Source: Firmicutes bacterium M10-2
Lineage (GTDB): Bacteria > Bacillota_I > Bacilli_A > Erysipelotrichales > Erysipelotrichaceae
Reading direction: 5' to 3'
Assembly (NCBI GenBank): GCA_000403415.2
Contig: KE159681.1
Coordinates: forward strand, 576,053-634,020
Length of the DNA stretch: 57,968 nt
In this document: positions 26,987 through 57,908 of the stretch, one piece after another
Position numbering within the stretch: the stretch's first letter is position 1
Layout of the letters: each line of letters opens with the position of its first letter
Notes under the pieces: model-generated
Told to the model about the DNA's origin: nothing
Database searches by the model: none
What the model saw: only the letters and a program-made list of their open reading frames with translations
Program-made: the position numbers and the translations under genes

Positions 26987-28228
26987 TCATCGCAGAGGCC
27001 ATGATAAAATACCATTTCCGACACTTACACTGAATGAAGGTTCAATCTGAAACGGTAAGAGCGGAAATAATAAATTCGAGTACCGATTCCCGTAAATATA
27101 AATTCCTGCAAGTATTAAACTTGATCCATAAATCACTGCATAATTGGCTATCAACATCGCAACCATCATACCTAACAAGCAATAAAAAGTTATTTTCACT
27201 ATTTCTAAAAGAACAGTAAAAATCAGCGGTTTGATCATTATGACATATGAATATTCCATAGGAATCAATCCATCGTTTACATATGGGTATTCTGAAAGTC
27301 CCTGAACAGTTAACGGCATTGCAGTCGATTTTGTTTCAAACAGCTTTATGCTGTTCTCGTTCATCAGGATCCATGCATTCCATCCGGAAAATCCATCTCT
27401 TAATCCTAACCCTATAAACGGAATCAAGTATGAAAGAATAACCAAGATCAAAAATGAAATTGTTACTTGTGCAGCAGCTTCTGCCCACCACCTTCTTGCA
27501 TTTAATTTCATCATTTCCAAAATGCCGCATTGCCTATAATTCAAAATAATCTGAACCGCAAAAAAAATCGCAAGCACAGGAATAAGAAGTGCGATTAAAC
27601 TATCTGTTTGAAGTTGACGCACTAAGAACAACCAAGGTCCTCTTGTGATCGTTGCACTATCTAAATTATTCCACTCATACATTTGTCTTTCTGTCGTCTT
27701 TTTTAAGGTAGAGTATTTTTCATCTACGTGATCTGTAATAAGGCGTCCGACAAAAGATATTTTTTCAGGATCGAAATCAATTCTCGGCATTTCGTATTCT
27801 TGAATAAAATCATGAAAAGTATTATTCGCTAAAGCCTTTTCGTCAGGAGCATATTGATCCATTTCATATATGGAATTCAATAGCAATATTTTCCTGTATT
27901 GTTTTAACAGATCCGTATCACCAAACACATCTTTTCCGTGTTTTATAAACAATTCTCTTCCGGATCGTGCATTTTTCTGTTTCCAATCCAAATAATTTCG
28001 AAATTCATCAGCATCTTGCAAAGGAACTCCTTTTTTCTCTAACAAAGAAATCATAGATTTTTCCGATTGAGCCTCTTTCATTATATTCTCAAATTGAAGA
28101 ATGACTTGTTCTGCTTCGGAATTTCCCTTGAATTGAGTCATAACTCCCAATGATTGTATGATTAACATAAGGATAAAGACGATGCCCGATACACGTGTTT
28201 TCAAGATATTTTTAATTGAAAGCCTCAT
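26987..28228 (-). CDS. ABC-2-type permease, apparently frameshifted near its C-terminus
   Basis: 413 aa in the open frame. An N-terminal membrane segment (residues 10-30), a large extracellular region (about 35-200) and about five further membrane segments. It is the third gene of an ABC operon (ATPase 29327-30220, permease 28230-29330; 1-nt gap). The frame stops at 26987, but a different frame starting at about 27015 continues to 26910 with WYFIMASAMMIFAVV and LLFFFIWRAAQQIDERG, clearly a last membrane helix and tail. Adding one A at the GGAAATGG site (minus strand, about 27013-27018) restores it. So it is either a genuine truncation or a sequence error. Confidence 0.7.
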   Translation of the reverse strand: MRLSIKNILKTRVSGIVFILMLIIQSLGVMTQFKGNSEAEQVILQFENIMKEAQSEKSMISLLEKKGVPLQDADEFRNYLDWKQKNARSGRELFIKHGKDVFGDTDLLKQYRKILLLNSIYEMDQYAPDEKALANNTFHDFIQEYEMPRIDFDPEKISFVGRLITDHVDEKYSTLKKTTERQMYEWNNLDSATITRGPWLFLVRQLQTDSLIALLIPVLAIFFAVQIILNYRQCGILEMMKLNARRWWAEAAAQVTISFLILVILSYLIPFIGLGLRDGFSGWNAWILMNENSIKLFETKSTAMPLTVQGLSEYPYVNDGLIPMEYSYVIMIKPLIFTVLLEIVKITFYCLLGMMVAMLIANYAVIYGSSLILAGIYIYGNRYSNLLFPLLPFQIEPSFSVSVGNGILSWPLR

Positions 28229-28229
28229 A

Positions 28230-29330
28230 TCATTCTCCCCTCAGATCACTCTTTTGTACATTTATTCCCGTAAGTCCGCTCAAAAACAAAGAACATACAA
28301 TCAAGAGCCAAAAACATGAATTTCCTTTATACAATATTTCCTGACAAAAAACATATGAAAATATATCAGTGAAAGAAAACGAGAAGATCATTATTCCCAT
28401 AAGGCAGAGGATCCCGATCATAAGCACCATGATTCCGTCTTTTATCCACCAGGAAACCGATTGAATAAAAACCGAAAAGAACAATATATATACGGTCTGT
28501 ATTCCTATTCCTTCCCATACGAACTTGTTTATTTGTATCACGCCATTTTCTGTCATGATCAACTGTCCGTTTCCGGATCCATGCAAAAGGGTACCAACCA
28601 GAAAAATAATGAGGAGCCATATCCAGTATTCGAATACATTCACCCCTATCACGATTCCGGTACGTATCATAAAAAGACGAATTCGTGATATGGGTGCTGT
28701 AAACAATTCCTTATACATGCCGTGTTCAAATTCCTTTCCCCATAAATCCGAATTGCTAAAGAGTATAAAAAGTAAAAAAACAACAATCATATAATTTGAC
28801 GGAACGAATAGATGACGAATCAGTCCATATCCATCCGGCTGTTCCGGAATCAAATAGTTGTAATTCTTCTTTTTGATCGAATGTTTCGCTAAAACGATGC
28901 GATCCTTGAGATCGCGTTGGTTTGTGTTTAACAAAGAAGTATACGATGCAATTGGATACTGTTTTTTCAATGCTTCTTCCAACAATTCGTCAAAGCAAAG
29001 AGAATCCTTGGCAATGATTTCCAGATCCTCATTATTCACCCAATCACAATATACTTGATAATTCAGATCATAGGCTTGTTTCCAAAAAGACAACAATGCT
29101 TCCTGATCCTGTGTGATTTCCCCGCTTTCTTTTTCGAACAACAGAAAATTAATATTCGACTGAATGAGTTCCGTTTGCGCTTGATAATCTTCCATTCTGC
29201 TCTGTCGGATGTTTTTGTACGCCATCTCTTTTTGTACTATCAAAGCAAATGTCATTAAGATAAAAATTAAAATACATACTTTGTTCTTTCTTTGAAAAAG
29301 AAAAAATATTTCGGCTCTAATGCGGTTCAT
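28230..29330 (-). CDS. ABC-2-type permease
   Basis: 366 aa. One N-terminal membrane helix (residues about 17-33), a charged extracellular region to about residue 160 and about five C-terminal helices. Start overlaps the ATPase stop by 4 bp (ATGA). The two large permeases with long extracellular N-terminal loops resemble each other in architecture and probably form a heterodimer with the ATPase at 29327-30220. Substrate unknown; divergence from a LytTR two-component locus suggests a peptide. Confidence 0.78.
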   Translation of the reverse strand: MNRIRAEIFFLFQRKNKVCILIFILMTFALIVQKEMAYKNIRQSRMEDYQAQTELIQSNINFLLFEKESGEITQDQEALLSFWKQAYDLNYQVYCDWVNNEDLEIIAKDSLCFDELLEEALKKQYPIASYTSLLNTNQRDLKDRIVLAKHSIKKKNYNYLIPEQPDGYGLIRHLFVPSNYMIVVFLLFILFSNSDLWGKEFEHGMYKELFTAPISRIRLFMIRTGIVIGVNVFEYWIWLLIIFLVGTLLHGSGNGQLIMTENGVIQINKFVWEGIGIQTVYILFFSVFIQSVSWWIKDGIMVLMIGILCLMGIMIFSFSFTDIFSYVFCQEILYKGNSCFWLLIVCSLFLSGLTGINVQKSDLRGE

Positions 29331-30220
29331 CCTTCTTCTCCATAGATCCGCCGATATACTTGTTCCAAGTCATTTCCGTTATCTTCTATTTTGTAAATAT
29401 GAATATTTGCCTGAATTACTTTTTCGATCAGTTGAGCAAATTCTTCTTTTGATCCAACCCATAGATATACATTATTTTTTTCTATTCTTATGATCTGATC
29501 AGAAGGCAAAATTCTTTTGATTTGTGTTGGTTCCGATACATTCAATATGATCTTTTTTCTTTGTTCTCTTAATTGGTCCATCGTTTGCTCATCAATGATT
29601 TGGCCTTCTTTGATAAAAATCACCCGATCGACCAATTGTTCCACTTCATTTAACTGATGACTGGAAAGCAAAATACTCGTACCCTGATCACGGATCTGAG
29701 CTATTTTCTTTCTTAATTCGAAAACTGCTTGCGGATCCAATCCGTTCATCGGTTCATCCAGGATCAGAACTTTCGGATTTGCCAGCATTGCCAAAGAAAG
29801 AACCAATCTTTGTTTCATTCCCATAGAATAGGTTTTCGCTGCATGATTCAGTTTTTCGCTTAATCCGCTGAACTCTGCCATCTCTTCTATTCTTTTTTTA
29901 TCTACATTTCTCCATTGTGCCACCAATTTCAAATGTTCCCATCCTGTAAGATTTGGATAGAGAGAAGGATATTCTATACTTACTCCCAAACCACTTAACG
30001 CTTTGTTTTTTTCATCTTTAAGGGAATAGCCATTTATAATAATTTCCCCTTCTGTCGGATGATATAGTCCGCAAAGACATTTCATAGTCGTTGATTTTCC
30101 TGCTCCATTCGGTCCAATGAATCCCACGACTTCATGATCTTGAATATGAAAAGATATGTCTTTCAGAATCGACTTATGATGAATTTGCTTGCTCAGTTTG
30201 TTAACAATCAATACATCCAT
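29327..30220 (-). CDS. ABC transporter ATP-binding protein
   Basis: 297 aa with Walker A GPNGAGKST, signature YSMGMKQRLV, Walker B VLILDEPMNG and a 90-residue C-terminal extension. AAAGGAG lies before the ATG. It is the first gene of a three-gene operon with the permeases at 28230 and 26987 and diverges from the LytTR regulator at 30404. Two TTACnATT octamers (30239-30246 and 30253-30260) sit in its leader with a 14-nt period and might be regulator contacts, though that is weak. Confidence 0.9.
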   Translation of the reverse strand: MDVLIVNKLSKQIHHKSILKDISFHIQDHEVVGFIGPNGAGKSTTMKCLCGLYHPTEGEIIINGYSLKDEKNKALSGLGVSIEYPSLYPNLTGWEHLKLVAQWRNVDKKRIEEMAEFSGLSEKLNHAAKTYSMGMKQRLVLSLAMLANPKVLILDEPMNGLDPQAVFELRKKIAQIRDQGTSILLSSHQLNEVEQLVDRVIFIKEGQIIDEQTMDQLREQRKKIILNVSEPTQIKRILPSDQIIRIEKNNVYLWVGSKEEFAQLIEKVIQANIHIYKIEDNGNDLEQVYRRIYGEEG

Positions 30221-30354
30221 ATTTTCTCCTTTTTATCATTACGATTAAGCAATTACAATTTGCCTCCTCCGGATTTCCTTAAATAACATTTATCATTTTG
30301 TTTTTAAAAGAACAATATATCGGACGCATTCGGTTTAATCCATGACTCATGTGG

Positions 30355-30360
30355 TATACT
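30355..30360 (+). promoter_or_regulatory. Extended -10 (TGGTATACT) before the LytTR regulator
   Basis: TATACT with an upstream TG one base away lies 44 nt before the chosen start at 30404. No convincing -35 is seen, as is usual for extended -10 promoters. Confidence 0.55.
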
Positions 30361-30403
30361 AAAATTAATTAAAATGATTATTATTGATCATAGAAAGAGT
30401 TTT

Positions 30404-31081
30404 ATGAATTTATTGATTGTTGAAGATAACCTTTATTTCCAGAAAAAAGTTAAGAATGTATTAATGCAATCATATCCAGGAAGTTCCATTACCTTGGTTG
30501 ATCGTTTAGGAGATATCGAAAAGAATCATTCATCGTTTGATATTTGTTTTATGGATATAGAATTACCGGATGGAGATGGAATAGAGTTTTTAAAAAAATA
30601 TCCGAATCGATTTCCTGCTGTTGTATATTTCACTTCTCATGAAGATCGGGTATATGAAGCGTTCGGAAAAAACATATATGGATTTATTCCGAAATCAAAT
30701 GAGTACTTTGAACAAAAGATGCTTGATATTTTAAAGAAAATTCCTGGTTCCCGTTTCATCCATGTCACGGATGAAAACGGCCGACATTGGAAGATCGATC
30801 TTGATAAAATCATTTTTGTGCAAACTGATCAGCGAAAGCTTATTTTACAGCTGGTGAACCAGTCTTTGATCTTAAAAAGACAACCGATCCGGGAATTTGC
30901 GCAAGTGCTTGATCAGCAATTTATCTGGATCAATCAATCAACTTTGATCAACATGAAATATATCAATGCATGGAAAAAAGAAGAAGTTATTATGATTAAC
31001 GGCCATATTCTTTATGCCAGTCGCCGCTTTGCAAAAGAGGCGTGCCATAAGTATCTGGAGAGTACGTATGTTCACTCTTGA
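30404..31081 (+). CDS. LytTR-family response regulator
   Basis: 225 aa. The receiver has pocket VEDN and phospho-acceptor Asp in CFMDIELPDGDG (near residue 47), then Lys in GFIPKSNEYF. The C-terminal LytTR DNA-binding domain (about 125-220) includes LDKIIFVQTDQRK and INQSTLINMKYINAW. ATG 30404 follows AAAGAG; an upstream in-frame ATG at 30374 has no ribosome site. It overlaps the downstream membrane/kinase gene by 14 bp and is divergent from the ABC operon, its likely target. Confidence 0.88.
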   Translation: MNLLIVEDNLYFQKKVKNVLMQSYPGSSITLVDRLGDIEKNHSSFDICFMDIELPDGDGIEFLKKYPNRFPAVVYFTSHEDRVYEAFGKNIYGFIPKSNEYFEQKMLDILKKIPGSRFIHVTDENGRHWKIDLDKIIFVQTDQRKLILQLVNQSLILKRQPIREFAQVLDQQFIWINQSTLINMKYINAWKKEEVIMINGHILYASRRFAKEACHKYLESTYVHS

Positions 31082-31391
31082 TCATTTTATTGCCGTATTT
31101 TATACATGTATATTATTTGCGGTATTTTTCGCTATCCTTTACGGAAAACCAACCCAAAAGACGAGTATCCTGATTTTTGGATTTATTGCAGAAGTTATAA
31201 GTACCTACTTTTTAGGGTCGATCGTTCCTCGCTGGTTTCATTGGAATTGGATCTTTGCTTCATGCATCATAACCGGATTGCTCGCTCTATTTATTTGGCA
31301 GGCCTACCGTTCGGATCCGCATATTAGTTTCTGGAGCGTTTTGCTCATTGCGATACTGATCGATTGTTCAGCAAGAGCTTTGCCATTTTGA
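31068..31391 (+). CDS. N-terminal membrane part of an AgrC-like sensor kinase (separated from the kinase by a frameshift)
   Basis: 107 aa with about four membrane helices (IAVFYTCILFAVFFAILY, ILIFGFIAEVISTYFLG, FASCIITGLLALFIW, VLLIAILIDC). The ATG at 31068 has GGAGAG upstream and overlaps the regulator. It ends at 31391 in a frame that differs by one base from the kinase frame beginning at about 31364. Joined, the two give a protein of about 430 residues with six to seven helices plus a GHKL kinase, the normal AgrC-like layout. Taken alone it would be an orphan membrane fragment. Confidence 0.6.
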   Translation: MFTLDHFIAVFYTCILFAVFFAILYGKPTQKTSILIFGFIAEVISTYFLGSIVPRWFHWNWIFASCIITGLLALFIWQAYRSDPHISFWSVLLIAILIDCSARALPF

Positions 31392-32344
31392 TGGATTACA
31401 TCATGGATATTCAGCCCTATATTTCACCAAAAGGGGAGTTCTTTTCGGCACTCACCTACCGCTTGCTGACTTTGATCCTTATAATCGGTCTTGCCTTGTT
31501 CTGGAAAAGAAATAAAATTTTCCCATCCGCAAAAACGAGCAAAATGAATATATGCATGTTGATCATGCCGGTCTTGATGCAGTATTTTGTTTATGATTAT
31601 TATCGAACTTTTCCTTTGCATAATACAGCTTTTCCGCGTTTGCTGGTTTTATGTCAGCTGACATTAGCTTCTATGATTGCGATCATTTGTCTGGCTATGG
31701 CCTATCAGGAACAAACGATTCGTAATCAGATTACCGGCGAATTGTTGTCTGCATCCCAACAGCAGATGAACTCCTTAATGAAAAAAGAAGAAGAAATAAA
31801 AGGTTTGCGCCATGATCTGAAAAACCATTTTCTCGTGCTTCAGCGTTTATATCACGAACAGAAATATGAAGAAGCCAAACAATATATTGATATGATCCAA
31901 GCTTCGGTTTTAACGGCTTCAGCGCAGATTTATTGTTCCGATCCGTTTCTTAATGCTCTTTTAAATGAAAAGATCAATCAAAACCCGACCATCAAATTTG
32001 AGATTGCGATTGATCCTGTCTGCATTCGTTTTTTTGATAGCATCGATCTTTGTATTTTGATGGGAAACCTGCTCGACAATGCTATTCGCGAAATAAGTAC
32101 CTATCCTGATCTTGATCGCTCGATTCACATTTCTTTTATTCAAACAAATGTCGGTTTCTGGCTGCGGGTCGAAAATCCTCTTTATTTTAAAAAGTCGCTG
32201 AAAAGCGACAAACAGGATTCTTCCCCTCATGGTCTTGGCCTCTCGATCATCAGAAATATCGCTGATAAATATCATGGAGATCTTTCAATCAAGCAAAATG
32301 AGCGGTTTCTTGTTTCAATCATATTTCAGGAACACGAAAAGTGA
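31364..32344 (+). CDS. AgrC-like sensor histidine kinase (GHKL), C-terminal part after a frameshift
   Basis: 326 codons open from TTG 31364; the first ATG is at 31391. Three membrane helices (LLTLILIIGLALFW, ICMLIMPVLMQYFVY, LVLCQLTLASMIAIICLAM), then the phospho-acceptor region IKGLRHDLKNHFLVLQ, N box MGNLLDNAIREI and G box PHGLGLSIIRNIADKYHGD. This is the HPK10 (peptide-pheromone type) family. It has no own ribosome site. One extra T at TGTTCAG near 31366 would join it to the upstream membrane part. It pairs with the LytTR regulator at 30404. Confidence 0.75.
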   Translation: MFSKSFAILMDYIMDIQPYISPKGEFFSALTYRLLTLILIIGLALFWKRNKIFPSAKTSKMNICMLIMPVLMQYFVYDYYRTFPLHNTAFPRLLVLCQLTLASMIAIICLAMAYQEQTIRNQITGELLSASQQQMNSLMKKEEEIKGLRHDLKNHFLVLQRLYHEQKYEEAKQYIDMIQASVLTASAQIYCSDPFLNALLNEKINQNPTIKFEIAIDPVCIRFFDSIDLCILMGNLLDNAIREISTYPDLDRSIHISFIQTNVGFWLRVENPLYFKKSLKSDKQDSSPHGLGLSIIRNIADKYHGDLSIKQNERFLVSIIFQEHEK

Positions 32345-32911: not shown

Positions 32912-33416
32912 CTAACTTACTGTATATTGATGGCTAATGCTTCCAAAACTCATAGATCCCATTTCAGAAACATAACTAATTACATTATAGTGGCAATAGA
33001 ATGTTACACTCATTTTATTACCACTATCGAAGATGACGAATTGTTCCATATGCTGACATATTTGTATATTGTGGATAAAATGCAGATCCCATCCAGTAAA
33101 CAGTACATCTGCTGTGCATGATGCAGATGAAATTATTCCTGTTCCTACATTTCGAGTATATGTGCCATACATATAAGGATTGACATCTTTATAATAGCGG
33201 CCATATTCATCATCATGAACGATATCATAATACTGCCGATTGGCGTGTACCGTTTCAATTGCATATGGTATGATTCCAGAAGTTTCATCAAAATACAGAT
33301 ACAGATCATTTGATATTATTAAATCAATAATTGCTTCCGAATTATTGTTTTTAAAGTCATCTTTAAATTTATCAATATATTGATCTGTTCTATCTCGTTC
33401 CTCTTTATCAAAGTTT
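32912..33416 (-). pseudogene. C-terminal, probably extracellular part of a frameshifted membrane protein
   Basis: About 160 codons are open (FENFDKEERD to the stop at 32912), but there is no start codon before the internal ATG at 33172. The upstream 75-codon membrane gene at 33417-33644 stops exactly where this frame begins. Removing one T from the TTTT run at 33419-33422 (minus strand) fuses them into a protein of about 236 residues: three membrane helices plus this soluble domain, which is rich in Tyr, Asp and His. No family recognised. Either decay or a sequencing artefact. Confidence 0.55.
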
Positions 33417-33644
33417 TCAAAAGAATACCAACAATACTATTAACACAATCACAAATATTCCATACATTAACCAATCTAGCTTTTTTGACTGAAAATATTT
33501 GATCAGGACTGTTCCAAAATATAAAACCGTAAAATATAGAATTGATTGCTGGTTAATACAATGACCGACTACTTGTTTTATCAACAGTACACCGTAAACG
33601 ATCCATAATACGATTGATAAGATATTATTTTTAATTTTTTTCAT
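33417..33644 (-). CDS. Membrane protein, N-terminal part (truncated by frameshift)
   Basis: 75 aa made of three hydrophobic helices (LSIVLWIVYGVLLIKQVV, ILYFTVLYFGTVLIKYF, LMYGIFVIVLIVLLVFF). GGAGAGAG lies directly before the ATG, so translation initiation looks intact. The stop at 33417 falls at a TTTT run, after which another frame continues for about 160 codons (32912-33416). I take them as one gene with a one-base shift. Confidence 0.55.
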   Translation of the reverse strand: MKKIKNNILSIVLWIVYGVLLIKQVVGHCINQQSILYFTVLYFGTVLIKYFQSKKLDWLMYGIFVIVLIVLLVFF

Positions 33645-33864: not shown

Positions 33865-34059
33865 CTATTCATCTCCAAAATGTGTTCCATGAGGATCTCC
33901 TGCTTCATTCATCCAACATAAATCCATTTTATGATGAATTTCACAAGGTTTAAGAATGATTCCTCCTGCCAATAAAATTGCTAAAAATAATTTCGCGAAT
34001 TTTTCGTAATTTTGTTTCCTTTTTGCTAATACAATCTTACCATCAACCTCTGTCTTTTT
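33865..34059 (-). other. Possible small secreted or membrane peptide frame, 64 codons, no standard start
   Basis: A 64-codon open frame on the minus strand encodes a Lys-rich head, a hydrophobic helix (FAKLFLAILLAGGIIL) and a polar tail with two Cys ending in GDPHGTHFGDE. This is the shape of an exported signalling or bacteriocin-like peptide. No ATG, GTG or TTG is in frame before the helix. A TTG at about 34062 would be in frame if the A6 run after it were A5. It lies divergent from the HTH-TPR regulator at 34144 with a palindrome between them. It may be real with a shifted base, or a decayed remnant. Confidence 0.3.
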
Positions 34060-34069
34060 TCAATGCTGT

Positions 34070-34085
34070 ATATTTTCGAAAATAT
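34070..34085. promoter_or_regulatory. Perfect 16-bp palindrome, candidate operator
   Basis: ATATTTTCGAAAATAT is a perfect inverted repeat placed between the divergent short peptide frame and the HTH-TPR regulator, 58 nt upstream of the regulator's ATG. A TTGACT (34092-34097) that could serve as a -35 begins 6 nt after it. The position suits autoregulation by the HTH protein. Confidence 0.5.
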
Positions 34086-34143
34086 TTCCTATTGACTTTT
34101 TGAAATTATTGTAATCTATTGAAATTTCATTTATTGTAAAGAT

Positions 34144-35394
34144 ATGGAAAGTTTATTTTATAGAAATTATTTGAAATATTTACGAAATGAATTTTATATT
34201 GCGCAATCGGAAATTGCCGATTTTCTTTACTGTTCGATCAGTACGTATTCAAAAATGGAACAAGGAAAAAAAGAAATCAGCTTTAAGGACTTTGAAACAG
34301 TGATCCATTTCTATGAAAAGAAAAATAAGAGATACTCTTTTTGTTTTGATAAAAACAAGAAAAAAGAAGCCAAAGATTTGATTCGTAAATGCATCATTGC
34401 CTTTGTCTATCGCAGTCAAAAAGAAATATTAGATGAATTGGAATCCTATTTGTCCGATCCGTCCAATCTTCATTCTTACGCATTCTTTGAAACCAAACTG
34501 ATCGAAATGATCTATGACTATTTCGCGGATCTTCCATTTCAGGAACGACTGCCCTTTATGCTGGAACATATGAACTTATACGATCATACCGATCAATCTT
34601 TAATTTATGACTTACACGGACTCAGCAAATTAAGAGCCTATGATCAGTCGGCCATTGAATGTTTTCAATCCGCAAAAGCGCTGAGTGTATTGGTCAATAT
34701 TCCCGGGTGGCTGGGACTAATTGATTATCATCTTATCATCACTTATTTGCAATCCATGAATCCTGTAAAAGCATTTCCTTTATTTGAAGAATGCAGTCGG
34801 GAATTCCAAACTGCAGGAGCTCATCGTAGAATTTTGAATTTACGATTCAATCAAGCACAATGCTTTTTAAAACTAGGCTTATTTGAAGAAGCTGATCAGA
34901 TTCACATAAATCTTCTTCAAACGTATGATCAGGTCGATACCGATCGATTCGTAGCGATTATTTCCGTGAATTATTCATGGAGCCAGTTCCTTCAAAAAAA
35001 CTATGCAAATGCGATCAAGCTGTGTCAAAAAGCGCTTGCGCTTCATTCACAGTTTCCCGATCTTTATATTACTTTGTCTTATAGCTTTTATCAGCTGGAC
35101 GAACCCGAAAAAGCTCTTTCTGTCATTGCCGACTTTCGAACACAGGAGCGAACAGATCCTCGATCGAAAATGGTCATGAAATTTCTAGATGTGCTTGAAA
35201 GCTATTTGCTTGAATACGGACCTGCTTTTGAACATCTTGCCAATCAGCTTTTACCACTTCTTACGGAGTGGAAAGATCTTGAAATCGATCTTCTCATCTA
35301 CCAAATGTTGATCGACTATCACAAAGCGAAACAAAACGAACATGCGCTTTGTGATATTCAGGACAAAATGATCCAATTCTTATTGAAAGAATAA
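34144..35394 (+). CDS. HTH-TPR transcriptional regulator (RRNPP/Rgg-like)
   Basis: 416 aa. Residues about 8-62 are a Cro/C1-type HTH (IAQSEIADFLYCSISTYSKM, EQGKKEISFKDFE). Residues about 120-410 are helical TPR-like repeats (ALSVLVNIPGW, AQCFLKLGLFEEADQ, AIKLCQKALALHSQFPDLY, SYSFYQLDEPEKALSVI). This layout is that of peptide-sensing RRNPP regulators (Rgg, PlcR, TprA), though it is longer than most. The ATG at 34144 has only a weak AAAG site. Adjacent genes are an ABC remnant and a LytTR regulator. The cognate peptide is unknown; the divergent frame at 33865-34059 is one candidate. Confidence 0.75.
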   Translation: MESLFYRNYLKYLRNEFYIAQSEIADFLYCSISTYSKMEQGKKEISFKDFETVIHFYEKKNKRYSFCFDKNKKKEAKDLIRKCIIAFVYRSQKEILDELESYLSDPSNLHSYAFFETKLIEMIYDYFADLPFQERLPFMLEHMNLYDHTDQSLIYDLHGLSKLRAYDQSAIECFQSAKALSVLVNIPGWLGLIDYHLIITYLQSMNPVKAFPLFEECSREFQTAGAHRRILNLRFNQAQCFLKLGLFEEADQIHINLLQTYDQVDTDRFVAIISVNYSWSQFLQKNYANAIKLCQKALALHSQFPDLYITLSYSFYQLDEPEKALSVIADFRTQERTDPRSKMVMKFLDVLESYLLEYGPAFEHLANQLLPLLTEWKDLEIDLLIYQMLIDYHKAKQNEHALCDIQDKMIQFLLKE

Positions 35395-35442: not shown

Positions 35443-35626
35443 CTATACACTTACGGAAACGATCTTCCCCTTTTCCATGTGGATGATCTCATCGTATTGT
35501 TTTTGATTTTCCAAAATGGGTTTATGGCACACATGGATCAGCGTGATATTCGGATTTTCCTTTTTCATTTTATCCACTCGAAAATTTATAGCTATGGTTT
35601 TATTGTTCCATTCCCGTTATAATGAA
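35443..35626 (-). pseudogene. C-terminal remnant of an ABC transporter ATPase
   Basis: On the minus strand a frame of about 60 codons without a good start ends at 35443. It reads NPNITLIHVCHKP, then NQKQYDEIIHMEKGKIV, which is the H-loop and following strand typical of ABC exporter nucleotide-binding domains. Walker A and B regions are absent. It sits between the HTH-TPR gene and the LytTR regulator, evidence that a transporter gene was lost here. Confidence 0.55.
35618..35623 (+). promoter_or_regulatory. -10 element (TATAAT) of the second LytTR gene
   Basis: Consensus TATAAT 24 nt before ATG 35647, followed by AAAGAAAGGAAATTTG as ribosome site. The -35 is poor (TGGTTT at 17 bp). Confidence 0.55.
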
Positions 35627-35646: not shown

Positions 35647-36348
35647 ATGTTTAACATCATACTGATTGAGGATGATCCAAACGATCTGGAAAATTTAAAA
35701 ACGATCCTTTCCGATTTTTTAAACGCTCGAGGGCTGGCGTATACTTGCCAAGTATATAACAACTTTTATATGGATCCTTCTATTTTCGAAAAAACAGATC
35801 TTGTTTTTCTTAATGTAAAAGATGACAACACCAATGAAATCGAATTTGGACGTGCACTGAATCGGCAATTCCCAAAAATTACGATCGTGATTACATCGAA
35901 TCATTCTCAAAATCTCATTGACGGTTATACGATACGGGCTGCCCGCTATTTTTTAAAACCGATTGATCCCGATCTTTTTGAATTTGAAATGGATGACGTG
36001 TTCGGAGATTTCGCACTCTCTCAACGTCAAGGGATCATGGATCAAAGACTTGCTCCCTGCAAAGTTTTATTTTCGGAAATCATGTATATTGAATATCAGG
36101 ATCATAAGACGATTGTCGTGTTGAAAGACGGCTTATTTTTGAAAACGGTCATTCCGTTTAAAGAATGGATCTCACTTCTTGAAGAGCAATCTTTTGCTCG
36201 TCCATATCCATGTTTTATCGTCAACTTGCGTTTTGTTGAGTCGATCGGTCCTAAAGATATCATTTTGAGAAACAAAAGAAAAATCCCGCTTTCTAAAGAT
36301 TTCAAGCAGGATTTCATTGCATCTTACAAGCAAATAAAACAAAAATAA
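35647..36348 (+). CDS. LytTR-family regulator with a degenerate receiver domain (Asn at the phospho-acceptor site)
   Basis: 233 aa. The receiver domain (1-120) keeps acidic EDD at residues 8-10, a Ser near 84 and Lys in YFLKPIDPD, but the phospho-acceptor position reads FLNVKDDN, with Asn56 instead of Asp. The C-terminal LytTR domain (about 135-230) includes FSEIMYIEYQDHKT and FIVNLRFVESIGP. No kinase is adjacent. It may work without phosphorylation or respond to a ligand. The gene has its own -10 and terminator, so it is monocistronic and apparently intact. Confidence 0.85.
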   Translation: MFNIILIEDDPNDLENLKTILSDFLNARGLAYTCQVYNNFYMDPSIFEKTDLVFLNVKDDNTNEIEFGRALNRQFPKITIVITSNHSQNLIDGYTIRAARYFLKPIDPDLFEFEMDDVFGDFALSQRQGIMDQRLAPCKVLFSEIMYIEYQDHKTIVVLKDGLFLKTVIPFKEWISLLEEQSFARPYPCFIVNLRFVESIGPKDIILRNKRKIPLSKDFKQDFIASYKQIKQK

Positions 36349-37561: not shown

Positions 37562-37909
37562 GTGAAGCAGTTCAGCAACGAAACGGTACAGGCTGTTATG
37601 AATGAAGCGTTGAAGTATCAAGGCTGGAAGTATGTCTACGGCGGCAGTAACCCGAACACCTCTTTTGACTGTTCTGGTCTTACCCAGTGGTGCTACGGAA
37701 AAGCCGGAATCAGCCTGCCACGAACCGCACAGGCTAGCGATTTGATCTTTTTCCATTCCACCTACAACACCAGCGACTATGTTACCCATGTAGGAATCTA
37801 TGTAGGAAATAATCAGATGTATCATGCCGGAAATCCAATCGGCTATACCGATTTGACCTCTGCCTACTGGCAACAGCACATCATTTGTGCCGGAAGAATC
37901 AAACAATAG
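37562..37909 (+). CDS. NlpC/P60 domain fragment of cwlT (Tn916 orf14-like)
   Basis: 115 codons. The catalytic Cys is in SFDCSGLTQW and the His in DYVTHVGIYVG; the end QQHIICAGRIKQ is the natural C-terminus of the Orf14 family. Between SLPRTAQA and DLIFFHS about 16-17 residues present in relatives (the QYDxxxHxPLSQAxxG segment) are missing in frame. No ribosome site of its own precedes 37562. It was one gene with 37285-37559 and is now split by a frameshift and trimmed by a deletion, so it is probably inactive. Confidence 0.65.
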   Translation: MKQFSNETVQAVMNEALKYQGWKYVYGGSNPNTSFDCSGLTQWCYGKAGISLPRTAQASDLIFFHSTYNTSDYVTHVGIYVGNNQMYHAGNPIGYTDLTSAYWQQHIICAGRIKQ

Positions 37910-37923
37910 AAAGGACTTGAAAT

Positions 37924-38748
37924 ATGTTTAAGAAGAAAGAAAAAACAGAGAAAGCACCTAAGAATAAGAAAGTGCGTACCATGAAAGTCGGGACACATAA
38001 GAAATCTGTCCTGCTGTTGTGGGCGGTGCTTTTAGTAAGCACCAGCTTTGGTGTGTATAAGAATTTTATCGCTATTAACACCCACACGGTACATGAAAAA
38101 GAAATCATTCAGCTAAGATTGAACGATACCAACGCTATTGAGAATTTTGTCAAGAACTTTGCGAAAGCCTACTACTCATGGGATACCAGCAAGGAAGCCA
38201 TTGAAGCAAGGACAACAGAAATCAGTAAATGCCTTACCAAAGAATTGCAGGACTTGAACGCCGATACCATAAGAACGGATATACCAACCAGTGCTACCGT
38301 TACAAATGTGCTGGTCTGGAATGTGGAACAGTTTGGAACGGACGATTTTACCGTTGCCTACGAAGTAGATCAGCAGGTAAAAGAGGGCGAACAGACACAG
38401 GTAGTCACAGAAAACTACATCGTAACTGTCCATGTAGATAAGGACGGTGCAATGGTCATTACCCTGAACCCTACCCTTGCTCCGGCAATACAGAAATCAA
38501 AGTATGAACCGAAAGCACAGGAAGCCGATGTCAGTGGAACTTGCCTACTATGTCAAAGACGGTGTGCTTGCTCCTGTATCCGGCGACTATGTATTTTCAG
38601 AACTGGTAAATCCTGTCTTTACCAAAGACGGCGCAACCTCAAGGCTAGTGTGTCTGTGAAATATCTGGATAACAAGTCGAAAATGACACGAATCTCACAG
38701 TATGAGTTTGTGCTTCATAAGGACGATAACTGGAAGATTGTAGAATAA
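37924..38748 (+). pseudogene. tcpC-like conjugal transfer protein (Tn916 orf13), broken
   Basis: The N-terminus is intact: GAAAGGACTTGAAAT precedes ATG 37924, then basic KKKEKTEKAPKNKKVRTMK, a membrane helix (residues about 29-48) and the first NTF2-like domain to about 205. After EADVS the frame turns into Cys/Arg-rich nonsense. The expected sequence ELAYYVKDGVLAPVSGDYVF appears one frame over (about 38537-38640). The original frame resumes with ASVSVKYLDNKSKM and ends DDNWKIVE at 38748. A deletion of about 80 bp and a second shift near 38640 explain this. TcpC is a bitopic scaffold of the conjugation pore. Confidence 0.8.
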
Positions 38749-44150: not shown

Positions 44151-44461
44151 TTTTAATCACCTAGCATGAGTTTATACTTCGTGTTATGTGATTAGAATGT
44201 GTTAAAAACTCATATTATATGCACTACAAATTCGATAAAAACATTGCCTCGTTCGGTAAATTGAGTATTCCGCCCAAACTGAGCCACCCTTTCCGGGACA
44301 GAGAGCCATTTTTTCCCAATGACCATTCCGCCCTAAGAGCCACTTTTCCCCCAATCGCAATCTTTATATTTTTTAGACATATGCACCTTCTCTGCCTCCT
44401 CTGTATGATTTTTTTGCAGACTCCGTCTGCGAAAGAATCTGTATGTAAGGAGGTATTTTTT

Positions 44462-45610
44462 ATGCAGAATTCTAAATCTATTCTTCTCGAGTTTTCTAGT
44501 GGTAACAGTCAGAGAGGCATTTCTAAAAAACTTGGCGTTTCAAGAAACTCCGTCAGCACCACTCTGAAAGCTTTCCATTCTTCAGGTTGCTCTCTCGAGC
44601 ATCTTCTTTCGCTATCTAATGATGAGATTCAGGAGCTTCTTTTTCCTGATGAAATCGGCAGAGACTATCTGCAACCAGATTATGAATCCATCAATCAAGA
44701 ACTGTGTAAACCAGGTATGACGCTTGGGTTCCTTTTTGAACGGTATGTTTCATCCTGTCGTGCTGCAGGACAGAAGCACTGTCAAAAAAGTGCATTCTAT
44801 GAAAACTACAGTCGTTACATAAGCACCAATAACGTCACAAAGCATCTTATTCATAAGCCAGGACGGGAGATGATGGTTGATTGGGATGGCAAGACCCTTA
44901 AGGTGGATGATCTGGCTACAGGCCGCACTGTCAAAGCCTATCTGTTCATTGCGACTCTTCCATACAGTATGATGTCCTTCGTTAAAGCTTACCCTGATAT
45001 GAAACAGAACAGCTTTCTTGATGGTCACATCAAAGCGTACGAGTACTTTGGCGGCGTCACTCCTGTACTGGTTCCAGACAATTTGAAAACTAGTGTTATC
45101 GAAAACAAGAAATATAACGAGCCGATTTTGAATCATAGCTACGAGGAAATGGCTGATTATTATGGAGCATCGATCGTTCCTGCCAGAGTAAGAAAGCCAC
45201 AGGATAAAGCTGCTGTTGAAGGATCTGTTCGCCAGATAACACAATGGATCTTCCCATGGCTGGATGGTATGCGCTTCTTCAGCTTTGAAGAGCTCAACAA
45301 AGCCATTTTCAGGCTCATAGACCAGTTTAATGAGCTCCAGTTCCAGAAACGCATAGGATCAAGAAGGTCTGTTTTTGAGGAAGAAGAAAAGAAATGGCTC
45401 AAGCCTCTCCCTTCTATCCCTTTTGAGCTGGCGACATGGAAAACCTCAATAGTTCAAAATAATTATCATATCTCGACGGATCATCAAAACTATTCATGTC
45501 CATATAAATACGTACGAAAAAGAGTGGATGTAAAGATAACGAATGAAAAAGTCGAGTGTTACTATCAAGGGAGGGATACTTATCAGTTCTCACAAACGGC
45601 TAAAAGGTAG
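44462..45610 (+). CDS. istA: IS21 transposase IstA, C-terminally frameshifted
   Basis: 382 codons. N-terminal HTH (NSQRGISKKLGVSRNSVSTT), then an integrase-core domain with MVDWDGK, VLVPDNLKT and DKAAVEGSV supplying the DDE triad. ATG 44462 has AAGGAGG upstream, and the longer frame to 44219 runs through the IS end. The frame stops at 45610. The expected continuation SSHKRLKGRKNQYSTMPKHM lies in the next frame (about 45583-45660), so it is shifted near 45585, then cut off at the deletion that joins istB. Probably inactive. Confidence 0.78.
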   Translation: MQNSKSILLEFSSGNSQRGISKKLGVSRNSVSTTLKAFHSSGCSLEHLLSLSNDEIQELLFPDEIGRDYLQPDYESINQELCKPGMTLGFLFERYVSSCRAAGQKHCQKSAFYENYSRYISTNNVTKHLIHKPGREMMVDWDGKTLKVDDLATGRTVKAYLFIATLPYSMMSFVKAYPDMKQNSFLDGHIKAYEYFGGVTPVLVPDNLKTSVIENKKYNEPILNHSYEEMADYYGASIVPARVRKPQDKAAVEGSVRQITQWIFPWLDGMRFFSFEELNKAIFRLIDQFNELQFQKRIGSRRSVFEEEEKKWLKPLPSIPFELATWKTSIVQNNYHISTDHQNYSCPYKYVRKRVDVKITNEKVECYYQGRDTYQFSQTAKR

Positions 45611-48922: not shown

Positions 48923-49924
48923 TTATTCGATTTCCCAACTTGAGTCTGCGGTTAAAGAAGCATCTGCAAGACGCCCTGTACTGTAGGCGATATCTCCTGC
49001 AATCGCAATCATACTTGCGTTATCCGTACAACAATACATCGGAGGCACCGTAAATTCCGTATTGGGATAGCGTTTTCTCAAATCTTCAACTTTTTCTCTC
49101 AATCTCGAATTCGCGGAAACACCTCCGCCGACCACAAAATGGCGGATTTCCGGATGATCATCCAGCACTCTAGTTACCCGTGAGAAAATTTCGTTCAAAG
49201 CTGTTTCCTGAAAACTTGCCGCAAGATCAGCCATATCGAACGTTTGATTCGTACGCTCCATTCGTTTGACAAACTGCAGCACCCCCGATTTCAGTCCCGA
49301 AAAGGAAAAATCATATCGGCCTTCTGTTTTCGGTTGAGGAAGCGAGTAGATTGCTTTGCCCTCTCTTGCCAGCTTGTCGATTTTCGGACCTCCGGGATAA
49401 CCAAGTCCGAGAACACGAGCCACTTTATCATAAGCCTCTCCGATTGCGTCATCTTGTGTTTCCCCCAAAATCTCAAAACTATGTTCGTCTTTCATATATA
49501 CAAGTTCCGAATTTCCGCCGCTGACAATGAGTGCGAGCACCGGATATTTCATATCGACTACAAGCTCGTTTGCATAAATATGTCCTGCCAAATGATGGAC
49601 CGGTACAAGCGGTTTATGATAAGCAAACGCCAAAGTTTTTGCTGCCTGCACGCCAACATGCAGACAACCAATCAATCCGGGCCCTTTCGTGACCGCAACC
49701 ACATCCACATCCTCCATGGTCATCTTTGCTTCTTTAAGTGCTTTTTCGATACAAATCGAAATGTTTTCCACATGAATTCGGCTGGCTACTTCCGGAACGA
49801 CCCCTCCGAATTCTTTATGTACATCAATTTGGGTCGCAACAACAGAAGAAAGCACTTCTTTTTTATCTTTTACGATTGCGACTGCGGTTTCATCACAGCT
49901 GCTTTCAATCCCTAAAACAATCAT
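48923..49924 (-). CDS. tsaD: tRNA threonylcarbamoyladenosine transferase TsaD
   Basis: 333 aa, the usual length. It transfers the threonylcarbamoyl group to A37 of ANN-decoding tRNAs together with TsaB and TsaE. Start ILGIESSCDETAVAIV; metal-binding HHLAGHIYANEL; VSGGNSELVY; VVGGGVSANSRLR; ASMIAIAG. Its ATG overlaps the rimI stop by 1 bp (TGATG). It is the last gene of the rarA-tsaE-tsaB-rimI-tsaD operon. Confidence 0.97.
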   Translation of the reverse strand: MIVLGIESSCDETAVAIVKDKKEVLSSVVATQIDVHKEFGGVVPEVASRIHVENISICIEKALKEAKMTMEDVDVVAVTKGPGLIGCLHVGVQAAKTLAFAYHKPLVPVHHLAGHIYANELVVDMKYPVLALIVSGGNSELVYMKDEHSFEILGETQDDAIGEAYDKVARVLGLGYPGGPKIDKLAREGKAIYSLPQPKTEGRYDFSFSGLKSGVLQFVKRMERTNQTFDMADLAASFQETALNEIFSRVTRVLDDHPEIRHFVVGGGVSANSRLREKVEDLRKRYPNTEFTVPPMYCCTDNASMIAIAGDIAYSTGRLADASLTADSSWEIE

Positions 49925-54791: not shown

Positions 54792-54908
54792 AGACCCGGC
54801 AACGTGCTATTTTCGCAGGCGCAAGGCCAACTATCGTCGCCGCTGGGGTGCTTAACTGCTGAGTTCGGAATGTATTCAGGTGTCTCCATCCCGCCTTCGT
54901 CACCGGAT
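54792..54908 (-). rRNA. rrf: 5S ribosomal RNA
   Basis: About 116 nt on the minus strand, from TCCGGTGACGAAGGCGGGAT to the matching 3' end CACGTTGCCGGGT. Conserved CCGAACTCAGCAGTTAAGC and the terminal stem are present. Exact ends are uncertain by a few bases. Confidence 0.95.
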
Positions 54909-54990
54909 CTTCTTTTGCTCGATCCCTCAAAACCGACATCCACTCTTCTCTCTTACACTTCTTTCGTCTCTTTCGCAAGTCGCGGGCTCT

Positions 54991-57908
<2,918 letters not shown>

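Follow-up and report, generated by a model that had tools for sequence, protein, structure and literature searches.

An RRNPP(A)-type receptor beside a peptide gene that has probably fallen silent: one unit of an apparently undescribed signalling family in Erysipelotrichaceae

Does the HTH-TPR gene described here form, together with the short hydrophobic frame that diverges from it, a peptide-signalling pair of a new kind? An initial annotation of the window, by which we mean the whole 57,968-nt stretch of DNA analysed, had raised this possibility from a regulator of RRNPP shape (34144-35394), a 64-codon frame on the opposite strand (34059-33865) and a perfect 16-bp palindrome between them (34070-34085). 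All three features were recovered in our analysis. The proposal of a new pair holds for the receptor, the peptide family and the palindrome, which are conserved in paralogues and relatives, but the window copy is probably an inactive signal gene. With a probability of roughly 0.75, we read the locus as one unit of a lineage-specific family of RRNPP(A)-type quorum-sensing systems, in which the window copy has lost its own peptide signal. The features of the locus are as follows.

32912 to 33644, minus strand: gene downstream of the peptide, with a membrane segment (33417-33644) that is followed, in a different frame, by a hydrophilic portion reaching 32912; a frameshift has apparently disrupted the gene
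33865 to 34059, minus strand: propeptide frame of 64 codons, stop to stop (translation; family alignments; homologues in three genomes)
33868 to 34008, minus strand: conserved body of the window peptide: a hydrophobic segment, followed by the core C-x2-H-H-x2-D-x-C-W and the tail DPHGTHFGDE (family alignments)
34070 to 34085, no strand: 16-bp perfect palindrome ATATTTTCGAAAATAT, presumed operator of three paralogous units
34144 to 35394, plus strand: predicted RRNPP(A)-type receptor/transcription factor of 416 aa, with an HTH and nine TPR helix pairs (Pfam HTH_3/TPR, profile, AlphaFold, Foldseek, VIA-align)
35452 to 35577, minus strand: what is left of the C-terminal end of an ABC-transporter ATPase; 42 aa align with the ABC protein of unit L002 at 57% identity (tblastn)

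Receptor sequence, fold and selection

Pfam places an HTH_3 domain at residues 10-53 of the window receptor with E 1e-4 and 22.7 bits, just below the cut-off of 23, which the HTH_3 of the paralogue L017 exceeds; no NCBIfam family scored above its cut-off for the window receptor, and the Pfam TPR calls are weak or absent in the regulators of G005, a genome from a different genus. The AlphaFold model (pLDDT 93.3, pTM 0.87) consists of a helical HTH followed by nine helix pairs, as opposed to the five TPRs of Rgg-type regulators. When solved structures were searched with a profile of 12 related regulators, the top full-length match was NprR (4gpk; residues 74-413, E 6e-7), and Rap proteins came next among peptide receptors. 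Foldseek (E 1.5e-6) likewise ranked NprR, both apo and in complex with NprX, ahead of Rap proteins with Phr peptides. VIA-align gave Z 25.9 and an rmsd of 3.5 over 340 residues for NprR (5dbk) and Z ~26 for the Rap protein of Phi3T; since the TPR arrays of eukaryotic LGN reach Z 22.1, the margin of NprR over a generic TPR array is only moderate. Profile, Foldseek and VIA-align all point to a C-terminal TPR superhelix of the NprR/Rap/PlcR/AimR type, while the identity to NprR is about 15% and does not amount to the sequence similarity of the NprR subfamily. Judged from sequence and predicted structure, the window ORF is a receptor of the RRNPP(A) kind with HTH-9TPR layout, and over its full length it resembles NprR and Rap most. 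This layout matches clan B of the RRNPPA phylogeny (PMC12700828).

Contig C16 of the same genome carries two paralogues of the receptor (64 and 62%), the congener G001 has an orthologue (67%), and the HTH region is near-identical among these four proteins. Comparison with the G001 orthologue (pN 0.19, pS 0.70) indicates that purifying selection acts on the window receptor. The receptor found no match in phage or plasmid records, and the viral contigs searched held no relatives of receptor or peptide; we therefore rejected a phage or plasmid origin.

The peptide family, its palindromes and operons

The minus-strand frame translates as KKTEVDGKIVLAKRKQNYEKFAKLFLAILLAGGIILKPCEIHHKMDLCWMNEAGDPHGTHFGDE, ending in LFLAILLAGGIILKPCEIHHKMDLCWMNEAGDPHGTHFGDE before the stop codon. 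In members of its family, the N-terminus is mostly positive and leads into a hydrophobic segment; the C-x2-H-[H]-x2-D-x-C-W core comes next, then a tail that varies, and the propeptides of intact units measure 46-52 aa. In the family alignment, the conserved part comes after the hydrophobic segment, and units differ at the far C-terminal end, with PHGTHFGDE in the window and PYGTEYGNE, PYGYGLGDK, PNGTIYGDE, PNGAPNGKK, PYGDHKGDK and others elsewhere. We know of no characterised RRNPP propeptide that carries such a Cys/His core, a point against the signalling reading. Export signals were judged from hydropathy alone, and we infer the position of the pheromone. A search with a profile that includes the window copy itself returned eight peptide copies in its own genome, two in the congener G001 and four in G005; nothing convincing was found beyond this genus and G005 among 315 genomes of the order and 392 of the phylum, with weak matches in two further genomes (G217 and G309).

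At 12 of the 14 peptide loci, spread over two genera, a short frame with a hydrophobic segment diverges from an HTH-TPR regulator gene, which is frameshifted or truncated at two of them (C12 and C21b). The two loci without a divergent regulator are a degenerate copy (C1:189111-189218) and one on contig C47 of G005. The family as a whole thus has the adjacent propeptide gene of RRNPP(A) systems, whereas the window copy itself has lost its start. The distances among receptors correlate with those among peptides (Mantel r 0.53, P 0.009, n = 10) and with those of the tail only (r 0.42, P 0.014); this fits a pairing of the two, but may only mirror the shared ancestry of neighbouring genes. One contig carries duplicate peptide genes with identical translation (G000 C21:47536-47676 and 49575-49715; L067), one beside an intact receptor and the other beside a truncated one.

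The palindrome ATATTTTCGAAAATAT has exactly three perfect copies in the 2.4-Mb genome, each between a paralogous receptor and its peptide frame, against a composition-based expectation of ~0.01 copies. Allowing up to two mismatches gives 30 sites, compared with 3 for a reversed control, and a 14/16 copy stands 88 bp upstream of the G001 orthologue. The initial annotation had named the lack of either element in relatives as a refutation of its proposal. Neither refutation held: homologues of the peptide frame occur in three genomes, and the palindrome recurs near homologous regulators. More distant units have other palindromes. One of these, ACTGTTTTTGAGCAAAAAACAGT, occurs a single time, at G001b; a divergent form at L009 is suggestive but no proof. 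One-mismatch copies of ATATTTTCGAAAATAT at C12 and C20 were discarded as operators, being inside ORFs or without a clear target, and a promoter scan performed no better than on shuffled sequences.

Several of the peptide genes head an operon, and the layout suggests that the receptor controls these operons. The order in G001a is peptide, radical-SAM/SPASM gene, a 34-residue precursor candidate and ABC transporter. The Gly/Cys/His-rich candidate, MKELVIGRNIQEKIQAKLNYMNGGAGGHNCHCGS (L034:6196-6300; G001 C1:608576-608677; core NGGAGGHNCHCGS), has its own Shine-Dalgarno sequence and, apart from a fused copy in L002, is absent from the other family genomes searched. L002 has the same gene order with a shortened radical-SAM ORF of 343 aa (G000 C16:169975-171006; L065:9975-11006) that ends in the precursor-like HQIQARLSYMNGGAICHCES / YMNGGAICHCES, apparently a fusion of maturase and precursor through a deletion. 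In both L002 and G001a, the end of the peptide gene overlaps the start of the radical-SAM ORF. In L003, the peptide leads an operon that encodes two proteins without Pfam match plus an ABC pair, and the C12 peptide precedes HAD, MFS and kinase-like genes. Seen by eye, the 107-aa protein directly behind the L003 peptide (G000 C16:177517-177840; L066:1018-1341; no Pfam match) is acyl-carrier-like; it is followed by the 241-aa second Pfam-less protein and the ABC pair, possibly an unusual biosynthetic operon.

The start region of the window copy and alternative readings

The absence of a standard start, already noted in the initial annotation, is confirmed: no in-frame ATG, GTG or TTG precedes the hydrophobic stretch, and the sole listed standard start, a TTG at 33972, lies past most of it. 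A comparison of the start regions of nine units, together with a DNA alignment, places the following features in the window.

34000 to 34004, minus strand: five consecutive A immediately behind the ACG; in the paralogue L003 the run has six A and the one-base offset is equal
34005 to 34007, minus strand: ACG where homologous genes have their ATG start; a reading frame begun here differs by one base from that of the peptide
34017 to 34021, minus strand: AAGGA resembling a Shine-Dalgarno sequence, upstream of the ACG; it aligns with the AAAGGAGAAATAATT-ATG of L002

In seven of the nine units (L002, G001a, G001b, C12, C21a, C21b and C16c), a Shine-Dalgarno sequence is followed by an in-frame ATG. 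L003 has kept its ATG but shows the same offset as the window, with 62 nt from the start position to the Cys codon in both. The initial annotation had sought the repair elsewhere, in the removal of one A from a run of six at about 34054-34060. Since the homologues set the start at 34005-34007, about 50 bp further in than this run, that repair has to be rejected. In this assembly, the window peptide gene has an ACG in place of the lost ATG and its frame is shifted by one base, and for this reason it is probably no active signal gene; most likely, it has been silenced while receptor and operator persist. As there is one assembly per species, the ACG and the offset could be specific to the strain or, less likely, assembly errors. 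Other units of the genome have decayed as well, with truncated or frameshifted regulators at L007/L008, L009 and L012 and the degenerate peptide copy on C1.

Might the window unit nevertheless be fully active? Translation could begin at a non-standard codon, such as the ATT at 34033-34035 behind a GAGG, or slip on the A-run after the start, as in L003. The window and L003 do resemble each other in the offset, in the spacing to the Cys codon and in the A5/A6 run right after the start, and both frames are otherwise open and retain the motif. We consider full activity unlikely all the same: the window copy would have two lesions to bypass, the ACG and the frame offset, seven other units make do with a plain Shine-Dalgarno sequence and ATG, and decay is evident both around the window unit (the broken downstream gene, the ABC remnant) and in its siblings elsewhere in the genome.

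The remaining alternatives concern the nature of the peptide, and both are less probable still. A Cys-containing peptide whose gene overlaps a radical-SAM ORF in two units, and which has two conserved Cys, might be the precursor of a sactipeptide-like, radical-SAM-modified RiPP, with the HTH-TPR protein merely its regulator. However, the G001a unit holds a separate precursor candidate behind its radical-SAM gene, the radical-SAM ORF of L002 carries a similar sequence fused to it, and most units have no radical-SAM gene next to the peptide; we therefore rejected the divergent peptide as RiPP precursor and find it best read as a signal. It is about as improbable that the peptide is a type I-like toxin or a non-signalling membrane protein repressed by the HTH-TPR protein, a view that its shortness, its hydrophobicity, its few charged residues and a neighbouring regulator of its own would otherwise accommodate: conservation sits after the hydrophobic segment, the extreme C-terminus varies across units, the regulator has the NprR/Rap fold and the peptide stands at the head of operons in several units.

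Proposed circuit and relation to known systems

By analogy, we infer export, processing, import and binding of the peptide, as well as the direction of regulation and any cross-talk. The divergent gene would give a propeptide that is exported via its hydrophobic segment, after which the C-terminal tail would be set free as the pheromone. This would be re-imported, presumably through an Opp transporter, and bound in the TPR groove of the HTH-9TPR receptor. Opp-type binding proteins (matches to SBP_bac_5, PF00496) number four in the window's own genome, five in G001 and three in G005. The receptor would act at the palindrome in the common promoter region and so control the peptide gene together with those that follow it, including the radical-SAM RiPP cassette in two units. 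Left without its own signal, the window receptor may answer pheromones from sibling units with an identical operator.

It is tempting to go further, and we offer the following as a whole with considerable doubt: that the C-x2-H-H-x2-D-x-C-W module binds metal or forms a disulphide and is needed for export or processing, that the family is a new RRNPPA subfamily in which several receptors share one operator within a genome, that the receptors with silenced peptides (window and L003) eavesdrop on the intact sibling, and that the A-run offset is an on/off switch of signal genes.

Among known systems, NprR/NprX of Bacillus and QssR-type systems, which belong to the HTH-9TPR clan B of RRNPPA, share with our family the HTH, the nine TPR pairs and an adjoining peptide gene. 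Here, in contrast to NprR/NprX, the peptide gene diverges from the receptor gene with a palindrome in between, and we know of no C-x2-H-[H]-x2-D-x-C-W pro-region in NprX. Rap/Phr systems of Bacillus and phages have the TPR fold in common with the window receptor; Rap proteins lack an HTH domain and are no DNA-binding factors. In streptococci, Rgg/SHP systems control RaS-RiPP operons (PMC13361665, PMC8092268). The likeness lies in a cytoplasmic peptide-sensing regulator with a small hydrophobic peptide gene and in the G001a operon with its radical-SAM enzyme, separate precursor and ABC transporter, whereas our family differs in its 9-TPR receptor of NprR/Rap type (by structure search), its Cys/His core, its polar tail and its bacterial family. 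The Alo systems of Paenibacillus polymyxa also comprise many paralogous receptor-peptide pairs per genome, some receptors being without an intact peptide, but AloP genes lie directly downstream of aloR (PMC7425212), whereas the peptide genes here are divergent, with the palindrome between. The main texts of large surveys and a full-text literature search made no mention of RRNPP systems in Erysipelotrichaceae or Erysipelotrichales, and the pairs of secreted peptide and receptor in this genome apparently form a subfamily, not described before, within a known kind of signalling.

If this reading is correct, some Erysipelotrichaceae own a set of private peptide signals, and the congener has one wired to a radical-SAM RiPP cassette, following the Rgg/RaS-RiPP logic with a receptor from a different clan. 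Three receptors with one operator, two of whose peptide genes are silenced, would offer a natural case in which to test eavesdropping and the turnover of signals, and the propeptide motif could serve as a search handle.

A few minor observations were made along the way. No convincing relatives were found for the protein encoded downstream of the window peptide (32912-33418). In G001, the repeated FQSTHPKRDET in ORFs at L070:196-1230 (C1:2212195-2213229) probably reflects a CRISPR array. Elsewhere in the window, an ABC transporter of two permeases and an ATPase adjoins a LytTR response regulator and a GHKL histidine kinase (26987-32344), and a second LytTR regulator lies at 35647-36348. An NlpC/P60 fragment with a TcpC-like conjugative protein (37562-38748) represents the remnant of a conjugative element; a transposase with a Mu-type C-terminal domain is found at 44219-45610, and 5S and 23S rRNA genes on the minus strand (54794-57908) lie close to the contig end.
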